Source: Bifidobacterium breve (GTDB lineage Bacteria > Actinomycetota > Acidimicrobiia > Acidimicrobiales > Acidimicrobilacustridaceae). Taken from it: DNA of 63,047 nucleotides. The stretch is taken from the NCBI GenBank assembly GCA_945862505.1, contig CAMAYJ010000006.1:1-63047 (forward strand), in the 5' to 3' direction. Both the position numbers and the translations under genes were made by a program. This document shows positions 9,363-14,412 of the stretch, piece by piece. The notes under the pieces were generated by a model that saw only the letters and a program-made list of their open reading frames with translations, did no database searches and had not been told where the DNA came from. The stretch's first letter is position 1. The number at the start of each line of letters is the position of its first letter.

Positions 9363-10022
9363 ATGCGTCTTGTCATCGCCACCTGTTCGGTCGACTACGC
9401 CGGTCGGTTGTCGGCCCACCTTCCATTGGCGACTCGACTCATCATGGTGAAGGCCGATGGTTGCGTGGCCATCCATTCCGATGGCGGAGCGTACAAACCG
9501 CTTAATTGGATGAACGCACCAAATCGCGTCACCGAAGAAGAAGGCCGCTGGGTCATCACCAACCCCAAGGGCGAAATTCTCACGATCACGCTCGTTGAAG
9601 TGCACCACGATTCAGCGCATGAACTCGGTGAAGATCCGGGTCTGCAGAAAGACGGCGTCGAGGCGCATCTGCAGGAGTTACTCGCTGCGAATCCAACTGC
9701 GATTGCCGACGACCTTCGCCTCATCAAGCGCGAGTACTTCACCGACATCGGCCCCGTCGACCTGTTGTGCCGCGATGCCGATGGTCGTTCAGTCGCAATT
9801 GAGATCAAACGCCGAGGCGAAATCGATGGCGTGGAACAACTCGCGCGCTATCTCGAGCGCATGGATCTTGATCCCGATGTGAAACCAGTGCGCGGCATCT
9901 TTGTGGCGCAAAGCATTAAGCCTCAGGCGCGAGTTCTCGCTGAATCTCGCGGCATTGAGTGCGTTGAAGTCGACTACGACGAACTTCGCGGCATTGAATC
10001 CGACGAGTTGCGCCTTTTCTGA
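9363..10022 (+). CDS. nucS: Mismatch-specific endonuclease NucS (EndoMS)
   Basis: Double-strand-cutting mismatch endonuclease that provides mismatch repair in Actinobacteria and Archaea lacking MutS/MutL. The N-terminal DNA-binding/dimerisation half ends near residue 85. The C-terminal RecB-like nuclease half carries the PVD (131-133) and EIK (147-149) catalytic motifs and the following Arg/Glu pair. The last residues, ELRLF, look like the beta-clamp binding tail typical of the family. At 219 residues it is full length. It directly precedes the duplicated secreted-protein/GNAT units, and a decayed copy of its 3' end lies at 11801-11854. Confidence 0.95.
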
Positions 10023-10064: not shown

Positions 10065-10070
10065 TACACT
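10065..10070 (+). promoter_or_regulatory. -10 box TACACT for duplicated unit 1
   Basis: Six bases before ATG 10077 (CTGTAG spacer). Unit 2 has TAAGGT at the same spacing, so promoter architecture is conserved between the two copies. Confidence 0.55.
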
Positions 10071-10076
10071 CTGTAG

Positions 10077-11102
10077 ATGGACCTGAAGCAGACCCTCTCC
10101 TCGCGACGCCTTCTGTTTGGTGGAATCGCGGCCGCACTTGGCTTCTCGACCGTCGCTGCTCCCGCACTTGTTCCGATAGCAAGCGCAGCTCCCGCCGAAG
10201 GTTCAAACACGACCGATGAGTTGTCAGCGCAGGCGATCGGCACCTACAGCTCGTGTTCTGCGTACTTCGGACTCACGAAGCACTCCAACTCCGACCTCCA
10301 CAGCTATGCAGCCAACGTCGTCAACAACTCCGTTTCACCCACTCCGATGATCGGAACAGATCTTGTTCCGGTACTCACCGTCACAGACGCTTCGAGCAAC
10401 ACAGTCGAATGCGTTCCCGAGCTCGCATGGACTGATTCCACTTCATGGGGAACCCTGTACTTCAACACGCTTGATACCGGGAGAATGATTGGACTCATCA
10501 CCTATCCCGGCCAGGGGTATTACCGGATCCCCGCCACCTACGGGATCACCTACACGAGACCGGACAGCACCTCATTCACCCCAGTGTCCACATCAGTTCG
10601 ATTCGAAAGCAACTACACGCGCAAGATCATCTCGGTCGACCGGACGAGCGTCCCTGCCGTGGCAAATGGCGTCTTCGACGCAAGCCAACCTGTTAGTGCA
10701 GATCTGACAGACGAGTTTTTTGTTGCTTTTTTCGATGCAGTTGAATCTGCGGGCAACGCGTCGCAACGTGCCTACGTCGAACAGTATTGGACCGACTACA
10801 CCAACCTAGTTTCCTGCAAAGAATCAGACCCCGATTATGCCGCCACAGTTGCAACGCTGAGCACGCTCATCCCCGGAGTCAGCATCTCGACATGCACGTC
10901 GATCTACATCGCGACACGTGCGTATTACGAGGCATCACAGTTCAACGCAAGAATCAATGACAGCCTGATCACTGTCAGCATCGCCAACGAACCGCCTCCC
11001 ACCACCACCACAACACTCCTGTCGACAACCACATCGACGTCGACGCCGCTTTCGACCACGACTTCCGCAAGCCAGGTCATCGCTCCAGCGTTCACCGGCT
11101 GA
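10077..11102 (+). CDS. Tat-like secreted four-cysteine protein, copy 1, unknown function
   Basis: Not recognised as a named family. The N-terminus has an SSRRLLFGG twin-arginine-like motif (Arg 10-11), a hydrophobic stretch and an ASA-A cleavage site near 37/38. The exported part has four cysteines (60, 112, 247, 273) matched by copy 2 at 60, 110, 246 and 280, and a strongly conserved block at about 55-155 (GTY..C..YFGL, NNxVSPTPxIGTD, VPVLTVTD, YPGxGYY). A Pro/Thr/Ser-rich linker (about 306-334) leads to the final residues APAFTG. There is no LPxTG, lipobox or C-terminal membrane helix. It is followed after 14 bases by a GNAT-like gene, the same pairing as in copy 2. Function unknown; an extracellular or envelope role is inferred from the signal sequence. 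Confidence 0.8.
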   Translation: MDLKQTLSSRRLLFGGIAAALGFSTVAAPALVPIASAAPAEGSNTTDELSAQAIGTYSSCSAYFGLTKHSNSDLHSYAANVVNNSVSPTPMIGTDLVPVLTVTDASSNTVECVPELAWTDSTSWGTLYFNTLDTGRMIGLITYPGQGYYRIPATYGITYTRPDSTSFTPVSTSVRFESNYTRKIISVDRTSVPAVANGVFDASQPVSADLTDEFFVAFFDAVESAGNASQRAYVEQYWTDYTNLVSCKESDPDYAATVATLSTLIPGVSISTCTSIYIATRAYYEASQFNARINDSLITVSIANEPPPTTTTTLLSTTTSTSTPLSTTTSASQVIAPAFTG

Positions 11103-11116
11103 GCACCAGTCACCAG

Positions 11117-11782
11117 ATGGCAGCCCCAGGCGGTGCAAAGTTCCCAGAGGTACCTCTCCCTCCACCGGGTACGCCAATGTGGCACGTGCGTGACGCGAAG
11201 CTCTCGCTAGGGAGATGGCGATGTCGAACGATCGGTGATCATCGCTTCACTGATTCTTCCGTCGTCGACGGACCGATCGATACAGGTGATTCCTTCGTCT
11301 ACGCCTACTCAGACGTCGATACAAGTGGCCATTCGATTCTGCGCATCAATCCAGCGTTACTGCCCGACACTCCGCCCATCTGGTTCGTCGCACTTCCCGA
11401 ACGGAACCAGCCATCACCGGCAATCTCGCTCGTCGCATTCATCACCAAAGACCATGCCCCGGGAACAGTCATCTCCGACCCCGAGTTCTTCTCGATGGCC
11501 GTGGACACCAGTCAACAGGTCGGCGCGATTCGTTGGTGGATCGACTCGGGCATTGTCGATCAGATCTTCGTGGCTGAGCAATGGCGACGTCAGCACTTGG
11601 GACGCGCAATGATCGCCTCGGCGCAGTGCTACCAGGTCCACAACGGCTGGACCCCGAGGTTGGCAAGCAATGGTCGTCGAACAGCATTGGGACAGCAGTA
11701 TGCAGAAGCAGCACTCTTCCCTGATCGGTTTGCTCCGCTTGACGACCCTGCGCCGCCTATGGATCCCCCAAGCAAGGAGTAG
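11117..11782 (+). CDS. GNAT-like protein, copy 1, partner of the secreted protein
   Basis: A 221-residue cytosolic protein without signal sequence. Residues 148-165 (DQIFVAEQWRRQHLGRAM) read like the acetyl-CoA-binding motif A of GNAT N-acetyltransferases: a strand, a basic RRxxxG loop, then a helix. The N-terminal half, with a GTPxW entry motif and Asp/Gly-rich turns, is not a standard GNAT and matches only the copy-2 protein. The C-terminus keeps LFPDRFAPL and MDPP in both copies. The start is 14 bases after the secreted-protein stop with no promoter between, so the pair is probably one transcript. Acetyltransferase activity is inferred from one motif. Another CoA- or nucleotide-binding role is possible. 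Confidence 0.7.
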   Translation: MAAPGGAKFPEVPLPPPGTPMWHVRDAKLSLGRWRCRTIGDHRFTDSSVVDGPIDTGDSFVYAYSDVDTSGHSILRINPALLPDTPPIWFVALPERNQPSPAISLVAFITKDHAPGTVISDPEFFSMAVDTSQQVGAIRWWIDSGIVDQIFVAEQWRRQHLGRAMIASAQCYQVHNGWTPRLASNGRRTALGQQYAEAALFPDRFAPLDDPAPPMDPPSKE

Positions 11783-11800
11783 CTCACCCACCGAATACGT

Positions 11801-11854
11801 GAAGTCGTTCATGACGAACTGCGCGGCATCGAATCAGATGAAGTACGCCTGTTC
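11801..11854 (+). pseudogene. Decayed copy of the nucS 3' end at the duplication junction
   Basis: These 54 bases align without gaps to the last 54 sense bases of nucS (9966-10019), matching at 42 positions by my count. In frame they read [18 protein letters not shown] against [18 protein letters not shown]. Most differences fall at third codon positions. The NucS stop codon is replaced by TCG and nothing upstream is open or NucS-like. It lies between unit 1 and unit 2 exactly where nucS lies relative to unit 1, so the duplicated segment included the nucS end. Confidence 0.8.
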
Positions 11855-11890
11855 TCGTCCACTAGACGTGCGCCATAATCGACTGCACCG

Positions 11891-11896
11891 TAAGGT
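11891..11896 (+). promoter_or_regulatory. -10 box TAAGGT for duplicated unit 2
   Basis: Six bases before ATG 11903, matching the spacing in unit 1. The AGGAG touching the ATG is too close to act as a ribosome-binding site. Confidence 0.5.
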
Positions 11897-11902
11897 TAGG
11901 AG

Positions 11903-12889
11903 ATGGCGATAAAGGAATTTCTCCAGTCACGTCGACTCCTACTCGGTGCGCTTGCTGCATCGCTCGGCCTGGCGTCAGCCGCGGCCCCTGTCGTTTCGGC
12001 CCAAGCATCAGCGCAGCCGGTTGAAGGCCCGGGCCCCATTCAGCCCAGCACAATCTCGGCCCCCGGCACCTACGAAGACTGCACGCCGTACTTCGGCCTC
12101 ATGAAAGACAATGCCGACCTTCTGAGTTTCGATGTCGTGAACGTGAACAACGCCGTCTCGCCCACTCCGGTCATCGGCACTGACATCGTTCCCGTACTCA
12201 CTGTCACTGACGGCACGCAGAGCATCGAGTGCATCCCTTCGCTCGGCTGGACCGACGAAGCAACATGGCAAAGTGATTACGTCGATGCTGGCTCGGGATT
12301 TGTCATCACTGGGCTCGTTGCCTATCCCGGTGCGGGCTACTACCTCATGCCGGCAGTCGATGGGACTACAGCGTTCTCGCTGAGTGGGGGCGGGTCCATC
12401 CTCCCGACGGCAAGTTCACTTCGCTTCGAAACGAACTTCGTTGGCCTCACGCTCACTGTTACCCCGCCAGCTCTCGTTCACACCTTCGGCGGCTACCTGC
12501 CACTCCTCCAAAGCCTCACGAGCGCGCAGATTTCCGACCCGTACTACGCAGCGGCGAGTGCTGTGGTGACGGCGGCCGGCGATGCTGCTCAGGCGGCATA
12601 CCTCTTAGAACTGCTCACCGCAGGGCCCGAGACCTTCTGCGATAACACCACATGGGAGCCGCTCGTTCCGGACCAGAACTACCTTCGGCTCATTGCAACG
12701 ATGCAATCGCTCCTACAAACCGTTACGACTACCGTCAATTGCTGGGGTATCGCTCATGGAGCCGAATTGCTCTACAACGTTGAAGTACAAAACGCGAAGA
12801 TCCCCAACAGTTTGGTGACGCTCACCATCACGGACCCGAACGCAACAACGACGCCTCTTGCCGACCAAGCCCCTTCGTTCACTGGCTGA
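11903..12889 (+). CDS. Tat-like secreted four-cysteine protein, copy 2, unknown function
   Basis: Paralogue of the protein at 10077-11102. It has a QSRRLLLGA twin-arginine-like motif at the same position, an ASA cleavage site at 35-37, four cysteines (60, 110, 246, 280) and the same conserved block (GTYEDC, YFGL, VNNAVSPTPVIGTD, VPVLTVTD, YPGAGYY). The middle region (about 155-240) is strongly diverged. The long Thr-rich linker of copy 1 shrinks here to about ten residues, yet the protein still ends in APSFTG. Conservation of this tail across unrelated linkers suggests it is recognised by something. The gene is followed after eight bases by its GNAT-like partner. Confidence 0.8.
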   Translation: MAIKEFLQSRRLLLGALAASLGLASAAAPVVSAQASAQPVEGPGPIQPSTISAPGTYEDCTPYFGLMKDNADLLSFDVVNVNNAVSPTPVIGTDIVPVLTVTDGTQSIECIPSLGWTDEATWQSDYVDAGSGFVITGLVAYPGAGYYLMPAVDGTTAFSLSGGGSILPTASSLRFETNFVGLTLTVTPPALVHTFGGYLPLLQSLTSAQISDPYYAAASAVVTAAGDAAQAAYLLELLTAGPETFCDNTTWEPLVPDQNYLRLIATMQSLLQTVTTTVNCWGIAHGAELLYNVEVQNAKIPNSLVTLTITDPNATTTPLADQAPSFTG

Positions 12890-12897
12890 ACATCAAC

Positions 12898-13563
12898 ATG
12901 GCAACACCCTGGTCTTCATCATTCCCAAACGTTGAGGCCCCACCTGCAGGAACTCCTGCTTGGTATTCAAGGGAAGAATCCCTTCCGCGAAATCGGTGGC
13001 GAGCACGAGCGATCGTGAGCGATGCCCATCAAGATGCCGACGTCATCGACGGTCCTATGGCCAGCAACGACGCACACGAATTGTGGCGAACCGATGTCGA
13101 CCCCGATGGTCGCTCAGTTCTCAGCCTCAATCCAAACGCTCTCCGCAATGCTCCGCCGCTTTGGTTTGTCGTTGTCCCTGATCTCGACGCAACACGCCCC
13201 GCAATGATGCTGGCTGGCTTTGCCACCGATCACGTTGCACCGGGAACAGTCCTCACCAACCCCGAGTTCTTCTCGCTTCCGGTACAAAGCACAGACCAGG
13301 TCGGAGCCATCCGCTGGTGGCACCTTGAGGGCGTTGTCGATCAAGTCTTTGTTGCTGAGCAATGGCGTCGTCGTTTTCTCGGCACCGCACTCATCTACGC
13401 GGCGAATGCGTACCAAGTGCACAACGGTTGGCCATCCAAGTTGACGAGCGACGGACGCCGAACCGAACTCGGGGAACAACTTGCCGCAGCGACATTGTTC
13501 CCCGATCGATTCGCGCCGCTGAAAACGCTTTCGCCACCCATGGATCCCCCGAAGGGGAACTAA
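12898..13563 (+). CDS. GNAT-like protein, copy 2, partner of the secreted protein
   Basis: Paralogue of 11117-11782, also 221 residues and collinear over its whole length. The GNAT-like motif reads DQVFVAEQWRRRFLGTAL. Shared blocks include PxAGTPxW, VDGPM/VDGPI, PPLWFV, DHVAPGTV, NPEFFS, GAIRWW, YQVHNGW and LFPDRFAPL. It starts eight bases after the copy-2 secreted-protein stop and ends immediately before the convergent MaoC gene. Unlike the secreted partner, it has kept its length exactly, which suggests stronger constraint on the cytosolic protein. Confidence 0.7.
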   Translation: MATPWSSSFPNVEAPPAGTPAWYSREESLPRNRWRARAIVSDAHQDADVIDGPMASNDAHELWRTDVDPDGRSVLSLNPNALRNAPPLWFVVVPDLDATRPAMMLAGFATDHVAPGTVLTNPEFFSLPVQSTDQVGAIRWWHLEGVVDQVFVAEQWRRRFLGTALIYAANAYQVHNGWPSKLTSDGRRTELGEQLAAATLFPDRFAPLKTLSPPMDPPKGN

Positions 13564-14412
13564 CTAGGCGTCGAAGGTGTGGCGTCCGCCGACCAGCACG
13601 ACGCGACCGTCTTCGCCGCGTGTTTGGAAGATGCACTCGCCGGCGCCTTCGTTCCACATCTCGATGGTGAGTTCTTCGCCCGGAAATACCGGCGACGCGA
13701 AGCGACCTTCCATCGAACGGAACTTGGCCGGGTCAGAGCCACACATCGTGTGCAACAGCGCGCGGCCGGTGAAGCCGTAGGTGCAGAGACCGTGCAGGAT
13801 CGGTCGGTCGAACCCGGCCAATGCGGCGAACCACGGGTCGGAATGCAACGGATTGCGATCGCCCGACAAGCGATAGGTCAACGCTTGGTCGGGACGTACT
13901 CGATAGGACACCGAATGGTCGGCAGCGCGATCAGGAGCAGCGTTACGGTCGCCCGAAGGACCACGGTCGCCGCCCCATCCGCCTTCGCCACGAATGAAAA
14001 TCGCGGAGCCAACCGTAAGCAGCAACTCGCCAGTTGCATTGTCGACACATTCGCCTTCGACGGCAACGACGGCGCCTGAACCCTTGTCGTAGATGCCGAC
14101 AATCTTTCCGGTGGCAGTGAGCGAACCTTCCACGGGAATCTCGCGGTGTTGCACGAACGACTGCTCACCATGCACGAGCATCGCAAAGTCGAATGAACCG
14201 ATTGCACTGATTGCTCCAGCGACTCCAGCGCCAATGACTGCCGCCATTGTGGGCAGCACGCGCTGCGGAACCTCGTGGCTGTTCTCGGTTGTGAACGCGA
14301 GTTCATCAATGCCTGCACCCACGCCAACGGCGTAGAGCAGCGCGTCCTTTGAGGTCCAGGAGTGAACAATTGGCGTGCCAGTTGCGCCAACGACATCGTG
14401 ATTGATGGGCAT
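13564..14412 (-). CDS. MaoC-like enoyl-CoA hydratase 2 (282 aa)
   Basis: Double hot-dog hydratase acting on (2E)-enoyl-CoA to give the (3R)-hydroxy product, as in the hydratase part of peroxisomal MFE-2. The C-terminal hot dog carries the hydratase-2 signature YRLSGDRNPLHSDPWFA followed by RPILHGLCTYG. The N-terminal half is the second, non-catalytic hot dog (WTSKDALLYAVGVGAG). A Gly/Asp-rich linker near residues 145-165 joins them. It lies eight bases downstream of an MFE-2-type SDR gene on the same strand, so the two recreate the hydratase and dehydrogenase of MFE-2 as separate proteins. Its substrate could be fatty acyl- or steroid side-chain CoA. Confidence 0.9.
   Translation of the reverse strand: MPINHDVVGATGTPIVHSWTSKDALLYAVGVGAGIDELAFTTENSHEVPQRVLPTMAAVIGAGVAGAISAIGSFDFAMLVHGEQSFVQHREIPVEGSLTATGKIVGIYDKGSGAVVAVEGECVDNATGELLLTVGSAIFIRGEGGWGGDRGPSGDRNAAPDRAADHSVSYRVRPDQALTYRLSGDRNPLHSDPWFAALAGFDRPILHGLCTYGFTGRALLHTMCGSDPAKFRSMEGRFASPVFPGEELTIEMWNEGAGECIFQTRGEDGRVVLVGGRHTFDA

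Follow-up and report, generated by a model that had tools for sequence, protein, structure and literature searches.

The stretch of DNA analysed here, hereafter the window, comprises the 63,047 nucleotides of contig CAMAYJ010000006.1 (GenBank assembly GCA_945862505.1, listed as Bifidobacterium breve and placed by GTDB in the Acidimicrobiales). The subject of this work is a pair of two-gene units on its forward strand, each composed of a gene for a predicted exported protein, S, and a gene for a GNAT-like partner, G, together with the pentapeptide that closes the S proteins and that recurs at the C-terminus of many other proteins. The initial annotation described two such units lying head to tail, and the open reading frames (ORFs) bear this out. 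The first unit consists of S1 (341 residues, 10077..11102) and, 14 bases further on, G1 (11117..11782), and the second one of S2 (328 residues, 11903..12889) and, after 8 bases, G2 (12898..13563). Both G proteins have exactly 221 residues, as had been noted, and neither has a visible signal sequence. The second S gene is recognised as a paralogue of the first from its ORF and from the comparison of the two products, which are 37% identical (E 3e-45); G1 and G2 share 52% of their residues (E 3e-84). The -10-like boxes TACACT (10065..10070) and TAAGGT (11891..11896) lie six bases 5' of the starts of S1 and S2, respectively, again in agreement with the annotation. A TANNNT box six bases before the ATG is the arrangement expected for leaderless transcripts, and it precedes 10 of 18 S genes, S1 and S2 counted and some of the starts being uncertain.

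The S proteins share an architecture made up of an N-terminal hydrophobic signal, four invariant cysteines, a linker rich in Thr, Ser and Pro, and a short C-terminal tag. The four conserved cysteines attributed earlier to the exported proteins (C60, C110, C246 and C280 in the numbering of S2) are invariant across 15 aligned S proteins, and S1 displays all these elements. The tags, PAFTG in S1 (11085..11099) and PSFTG in S2 (12872..12886), directly adjoin the stop codons; they are not mentioned in the initial annotation. The view that export is Tat-like (twin-arginine translocation) does not extend to the family: S1 and S2 both have SRR, but a twin arginine occurs in only 7 of 18 S N-termini, and we reject Tat export as a defining trait of S. 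The exported proteins had been reported to belong to no recognised family, and indeed S1 has no Pfam match above cut-off and no NCBIfam match, and the S profile has no match in the PDB. Pfam searches with the 15 S proteins gave single matches, none of which was common to two members (the weak ones including Gram_pos_anchor, E 0.06, and DUF7384, E 0.00033), and the predicted structure of S, based on an alignment of three sequences, has a predicted local distance difference test (pLDDT) score of 43.5. S and G constitute a conserved pair of families for which the libraries searched contain no matching model.

The C-termini of the S proteins are of two kinds. In the genome families that we label f1, to which the window belongs, and f72, a distant one, each of the 18 S C-termini that can be read closes with [FY][TA]G-COOH, and 17 of them fit the pattern P-x-[FY]-[TA]-G, the remaining one being the f72 tail, V-T-F-T-G. 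These 18 tails include those of S1, S2 and S3 of the window's genome, as well as those of two frameshifted S genes of genome G036. S3 belongs to a third, single S-G pair located elsewhere in the window's own genome (G000, contig C7). The two S genes of G036 (locus L043, 3091-5294) lie in tandem before G; each of them is broken by frameshifts, or by assembly errors, and their last frames end in PRFTG. In contrast, all six S proteins of families f7, f23 and f25 carry, in the same place as the tag, an LPxTG-like motif (LPPTG, VPVTG, LPATG, LPSTG, LAATG or LALSG), behind which come a hydrophobic helix and then arginines. Both the helix and the basic tail are missing in the tagged S proteins, whose chain ends at Gly. 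S1 and S2 cannot acquire a hidden helix by read-through of the stop codon, as G1 and G2 begin only 14 and 8 bases behind it.

The same exchange of tails is observed in DUF4397 (PF14344), the second of the two protein families in which we compared them. A DUF4397 query taken from G002 has matches in 9 of 40 chosen genomes. All eight DUF4397 proteins of genomes that use the tag (hereafter users), the query included, end in P-x-[FMV]-T-G-COOH, whereas the six proteins of non-users all end in a helix and a basic tail, which in five of them stand behind [VI]NTG. The DUF4397 protein of G026 is split over two frames, and its C-terminal part ends in QPRVTG. When S and DUF4397 are combined, the helix-less tag closes 26 of 26 proteins in users and 0 of 12 in the other genomes. 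Judging from these C-terminal sequences, the type of tail is a trait of the genome and not of the protein family, which suggests that some machine of the host reads the tag and that the tag takes the place of a sortase signal; this comparison is our main evidence.

We also searched for the tag across genomes. P-x-F-T-G followed by a stop was sought as DNA, with the reversed pattern as control, and TGG was admitted beside the stop codons in both counts, so that some of the sites are not protein ends. The 37 genomes of f1 contain 552 sites (control, 35), with 3 to 36 sites per genome and at least five in 34 of them, whereas 61 genomes outside f1 contain 106 sites and 101 controls, G041 being set apart. 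In a class sample of 395 genomes, f72 is the only other clear user family besides f1: its 12 genomes have 109 sites against 4 control sites, with high counts in genera g142, g155 and g189 and one to three sites in g151 and g164. Raised counts outside the user families were seen in G041 (family f6; 17 sites vs 0 in the control), G327 (f20; 13 vs 3), G213 (f85; 7 vs 0), G191 (f83; 6 vs 0) and G285 (f54; 7 vs 1).

Most of the sites that we inspected are the ends of ORFs. ORFs of at least 100 residues are closed by 12 of the 14 sites of G000 and by 19 of the 20 sites that were fetched out of the 31 in G002. In a sample with a single locus from each of 29 genomes, 21 sites close frames of at least 65 residues, four have Trp in place of the stop, and four belong to short frames, of which one is truncated at a contig end. 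BLAST sorts 31 tagged ORFs of G000 and G002, compared without their last 30 residues, into 15 families, and scans of eight tagged proteins returned alpha/beta hydrolase, fibronectin type III, DUF4397, choice-of-anchor Q and beta-helix repeat matches, the NCBIfam choice-of-anchor Q domain being present in two of the eight. As a pattern in predicted proteins, P-x-F-T-G-COOH is lineage-wide, C-terminal and present on many unrelated proteins. No model of the tag is among the Pfam and NCBIfam matches seen in our scans of the window, of S and of the tagged proteins, and no description of a P-x-F-T-G-COOH tag was found among the papers listed by our literature searches, two of which contain LAFTG or LPFTG once each; subscription journals and preprints lie outside that coverage.

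It could be argued that the tag is an inert remnant, left in lineages that lost helix-anchored display, truncated their proteins after the motif and now release them. Exported proteins without anchors are common, and a truncation right after the motif is the trace that loss of the helix is expected to leave. A remnant should decay, however, and the pentapeptide is kept at the stop codons of many unrelated proteins, in one family and in a family of another order, with a preference for V at position -7 (30 of 55 tags). We therefore consider an inert remnant quite improbable.

Two kinds of tagged proteins deserve separate mention. Ubiquitin-domain proteins fused to a further domain ending in PxFTG-COOH are encoded in G000 (C34, L234, 309-1121 and 1-285 (-)), G006 (L078) and G002 (L237/L127). 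Copies are adjacent in G000 and G006, no signal sequence is obvious, and the ubiquitin domain is very close to eukaryotic ubiquitin (for the G000 protein, phmmer against the PDB, E about 4e-28 to 9e-28, single-ubiquitin chains); in G017 (L071), the C-terminal part alone is readable. In addition, a tagged protein at L087 contains an internal LADTG and then ends in IGAEAPAIPVFTG-COOH, as if an old sortase motif preceded the new tag.

The scheme that we favour is as follows. S would be exported through its hydrophobic N-terminal signal, and its last five residues, P-x-F-T-G-COOH, would be a sorting tag that serves many unrelated exported proteins. The comparison of homologues suggests that this tag is a sortase motif stripped to the recognition residues, the helix and arginine tail of its relatives having gone. 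After export, a membrane sortase, probably the class-E-like one encoded by most of these genomes, would recognise the tag and cleave the Thr-Gly bond, upon which a free glycine would leave and the protein would become joined to the envelope. G would act before export, on S or on something that S binds. To the explanation as a whole, a helix-less, lineage-wide tag of the sortase type on S and many exported proteins, with G acting before export, we give about an even chance of being correct.

A sortase is the economical candidate for the reader of the tag, because the tag keeps the T-G, replaces LPxTG in position, and occurs in a family in which 34 of 37 genomes (f1) have a sortase match. In G000, the sortase matches are on contigs C34 and C12 and the window is on C6, so no sortase gene lies beside S and G. 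The C34 protein matches PF04203 above cut-off (E 6.1e-27), has the motifs GHR and ACHP, and looks class-E-like in our reading. The second match (C12, L066, 2984-3955 (-)) is to a sortase-fold protein (PF04203, E 3.2e-12) that, in our reading, lacks the catalytic Cys and His and is thus a pseudosortase; its gene adjoins one for a protein with LPMTG and a helix. Most f1 sortases have TLMAC and, ahead of the IV in the strand that follows, an insertion; both are missing from the f72 users, and the sortase of G060, a non-user, has the same insertion.

It should be noted that several observations weigh against a tag read by a sortase. Sortase signals have a helix and a tail as a rule, according to the parts of PMC11980579 and PMC5148588 available to us. 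Relatives of the sortase (323 residues) are present in 37 of the 40 chosen genomes, users and non-users alike, and no alignment column separates the sortases of 16 users from those of 13 non-users (filter: more than 80% of users, less than 25% of non-users). A special sortase as a marker of tag use is therefore not supported, and the assignment of the tag to a sortase is one that we infer. The three f1 genomes without a sortase match, G005, G009 and G032, have 17, 13 and 7 sites, respectively (their completeness is 71-85%), and sortase matches are also lacking in G285 and in G089, whose counts are slightly raised (7 vs 1 and 6 vs 2 sites). Moreover, G007, G025 and G010, with 3 vs 2, 3 vs 1 and 4 vs 0 sites, are f1 genomes that are not clearly users, and position 4 of the tag is Ala instead of Thr in 4 of the 18 S tails. 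By a crude measure, a hydrophobic N-terminus is present in 17 of 23 tagged ORFs compared with 20 of 56 ORFs of the window (S1 and S2 among the latter), which is a moderate enrichment only, and some tagged ORFs, e.g., the ubiquitin fusions, have no signal sequence.

These observations leave room for another view, namely that the tag is a genuine one with some reader other than a sortase, be it a C-terminal protease, a ligase, an amidating enzyme or a non-covalent receptor, in which case it would form a separate helix-less sorting class. The tag tracks f1 and f72, while sortases are present in 90 of the 99 genomes of our order sample and have no residue restricted to users; in addition, all 18 S tails of f1 and f72 have kept the C-terminal glycine. 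The homologues, on the other hand, place the xTG of an LPxTG-type motif exactly at the position of the tag, which a sortase explains most simply, and the available part of PMC4974636 describes, in AbpA, a short sortase signal without a helix. We consider a different machine rather unlikely.

G itself does not belong to the machinery of the tag. We rejected it as a candidate since it is also found with S proteins whose tails are of the ordinary LPxTG type, and since 25 of the 37 f1 genomes have no G match, yet 34 of the 37 have five or more tag sites.

S and G form a co-inherited unit, as had been proposed and as an inspection of the neighbourhoods of homologues has now confirmed. The search covered the 99 genomes of the order sample, that of the window included. 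S is present in 13 of them, all of which hold G, and G is present in 14, the exception being G003, in which G lies 48 bases from a contig end. Outside the window, S stands beside or near G at 18 of 20 G loci with readable surroundings, a set that leaves out three loci cut by contig ends and one with a partial G. The two G loci without S (the second copy in G115, and G310) carry the most distant G proteins. The orientation of the genes varies, S being divergent from G in G123 and located after G in G008, G034 and G060 (in the last at about 1 kb). At E <= 1e-8, G was found in 11 of 395 genomes of the class, in one of them (G204) as a fragment only, and no relative of G was found on viral contigs. 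Over 15 pairs, the distances between S proteins and those between G proteins correlate (0.81, a value reached in 0 of 5000 permutations), although shared descent alone could give the same result.

The array has a history that can be read from its neighbours. Upstream lies nucS, encoding endonuclease NucS (9363..10022, forward strand; NCBIfam NF002876, E 4.3e-107, above cut-off; Pfam NucS_N and NucS_C), whose 3' end has been copied along with the unit. The spacer between the two units is 120 bases long, and its segment 11800..11855 is a decayed copy of that 3' end, i.e., a scar of the tandem duplication, with 44 of 56 bases matching the end of nucS and a score of 52 against shuffle maxima of 32 and 30. 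The scar is also present between G1 and S2 in G018 and G008, two genomes of the same genus (scores of 44 and 48 vs 30 and 27); it was not found in the two spacers tested in G002, a third genome of the genus. In a tree of 19 G proteins, G1 of the window clusters with the nucS-side copies of G008, G018 and G002 (100/99), and G2 with the copies of G016 and G001 (100/99). Since the G1 and G2 clades each hold copies from several genomes, the tandem duplication of the S-G unit, which took the end of nucS along, predates the separation of the species of the genus. The gene on the 3' side of the unit (13564-14412, reverse strand), which we take to be MaoC-like, is 92-100% identical in seven loci of the genus, and the S-G array is therefore a variable insert between nucS and that gene.

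This stretch has gained and lost units. In G008, S1 and G2 have been lost and G1 is kept beside S2; as we read the spacer, the promoter and first codons of S1 remain before G1, and a remnant of G2 follows S2. G018 has kept S1, G1 and S2, with G2 reduced to a remnant, whereas the nucS locus of G002 contains two G genes and no fewer than three S genes, of which one runs into a contig end. In G001, an S gene and a G gene of the G2 clade lie directly 3' of nucS, as if the first unit had been lost. The initial annotation had assigned to each secreted protein its own partner. This is contradicted by the same three genomes: with G1 beside S2 in G008, S2 without an intact G2 in G018 and unequal numbers in G002, S and G are not in fixed couples, and we reject a one-to-one partnership.

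The turnover of the array also calls to mind a toxin-immunity or surface-antigen couple, in which S would be a rapidly changing surface protein that G protects from or diversifies. Such a couple would fit the patchy distribution (G is present in 7 of 21 genomes of the window's genus), the recurrent duplications and losses between nucS and the gene on the far side of the array, and the lower conservation of S, whose mean identity over the 15 pairs is 0.30 compared with 0.48 for G. A specific toxin-immunity couple, however, should not tolerate the persistence of G1 with S2 after the loss of S1 in G008, or that of S2 without G2 in G018, and no toxin family is among the Pfam, NCBIfam and PDB matches. 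Such a couple is, in our opinion, improbable.

The label GNAT-like given to G stands in part. The profiles of Acetyltransf_7, Acetyltransf_1 and Acetyltransf_10 match G weakly, from about residue 117 to 177, and [RQ]xxGx[GA], the acetyl-CoA motif A of GNAT proteins, is retained in its strict form by G1 and G2; all Pfam matches of the two window proteins to GNAT models remain below cut-off, including that of G1 to Acetyltransf_7 (E 4.9e-05) and the weak ones of G2. Thus, the likeness to the GNAT superfamily consists of these weak matches, and the difference lies in the sub-threshold scores of the window proteins and in a variable motif A. The conserved N-terminal half of G and a [DN]GRRT motif correspond to no known family in the libraries searched. 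The sequences would make G weakly GNAT-like. The initial annotation went further and proposed that each G may modify its S, or a common ligand, before export, which an ordinary GNAT acetyltransferase would do by acetylating S or what it binds. Matches to Acetyltransf_7 at E <= 0.1 in 13 of 19 G proteins (best, 2.1e-05) agree with this, as does the motif in G1 and G2, but only 6 of the 19, these two included, have the strict motif, the only PDB match of the G profile, hence also the best, has an E of 0.37, and the AlphaFold2 model (four sequences, pLDDT 41.3) is too poor to show an acyl-CoA pocket. We find an ordinary acetyltransferase doubtful.

If the favoured scheme is true, it has several implications. 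A lineage without the helix on many proteins would show that helix retention is not needed in general; the one exception that we have seen to the rule of motif, helix and tail is AbpA, a single substrate with its own sortase (PMC4974636, in the part available). Uncultured freshwater actinobacteria would gain surface proteins that otherwise pass as merely secreted, and the system could provide a ligase for soluble proteins carrying a five-residue tag. The S-G module adds to this a conserved two-gene unit that is open to direct testing. In its strongest form, the proposal is that this is the first genome-wide C-terminal sorting tag without a membrane helix, a stretch of five residues by which soluble exported proteins are recognised at their free C-terminus, adopted by two distantly related actinobacterial families in replacement of LPxTG-helix-tail signals across their surface proteome, and served by a modified sortase or a new enzyme. 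We place this a little short of an even chance.

How does the tag compare with known systems? The sortase, exosortase, archaeosortase, rhombosortase and myxosortase systems are described, in the part of PMC11980579 that we could consult, as using a motif, a helix and a basic tail, and class E sortases as reading LAxTG in the corresponding part of PMC5148588. Like the LPxTG and LAxTG signals (same part of PMC5148588), the tag is a pentapeptide ending in T-G, and it closes exported proteins in which a linker rich in Thr and Pro precedes it; the classical signal is found on their homologues, and the genome codes for a sortase that has His and Cys and that we read as class-E-like. Unlike them, it has neither helix nor basic tail, the protein ending at Gly, and it has Pro in the first position and Phe in the third. 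With PEP-CTERM, GlyGly-CTERM and MYXO-CTERM it shares a genome-wide, lineage-specific C-terminal signature on unrelated exported proteins, but those signatures, as far as the consulted part of PMC11980579 goes, combine a motif with a helix and basic residues, whereas the tag is a motif only. The closest precedent is AbpA of oral streptococci, whose LPKTS, without a membrane helix or a long tail, is nevertheless anchored by the dedicated sortase SrtB, according to the available part of PMC4974636; the tag resembles it in being a sortase-type motif that lacks both. AbpA, in the same account, is a single substrate, served by a sortase of its own that is encoded next to it, and it needs a tail of three residues (AVK) to function, whereas the tag has no tail at all, is found at 3 to 36 pattern sites per f1 genome and on many families, and has no sortase gene beside S and G. 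Taken together, the tag may be a stripped-down surface-sorting tag that has not been described before, that is, a variation on sortase signals that has a fair prospect of turning out to be a new kind.

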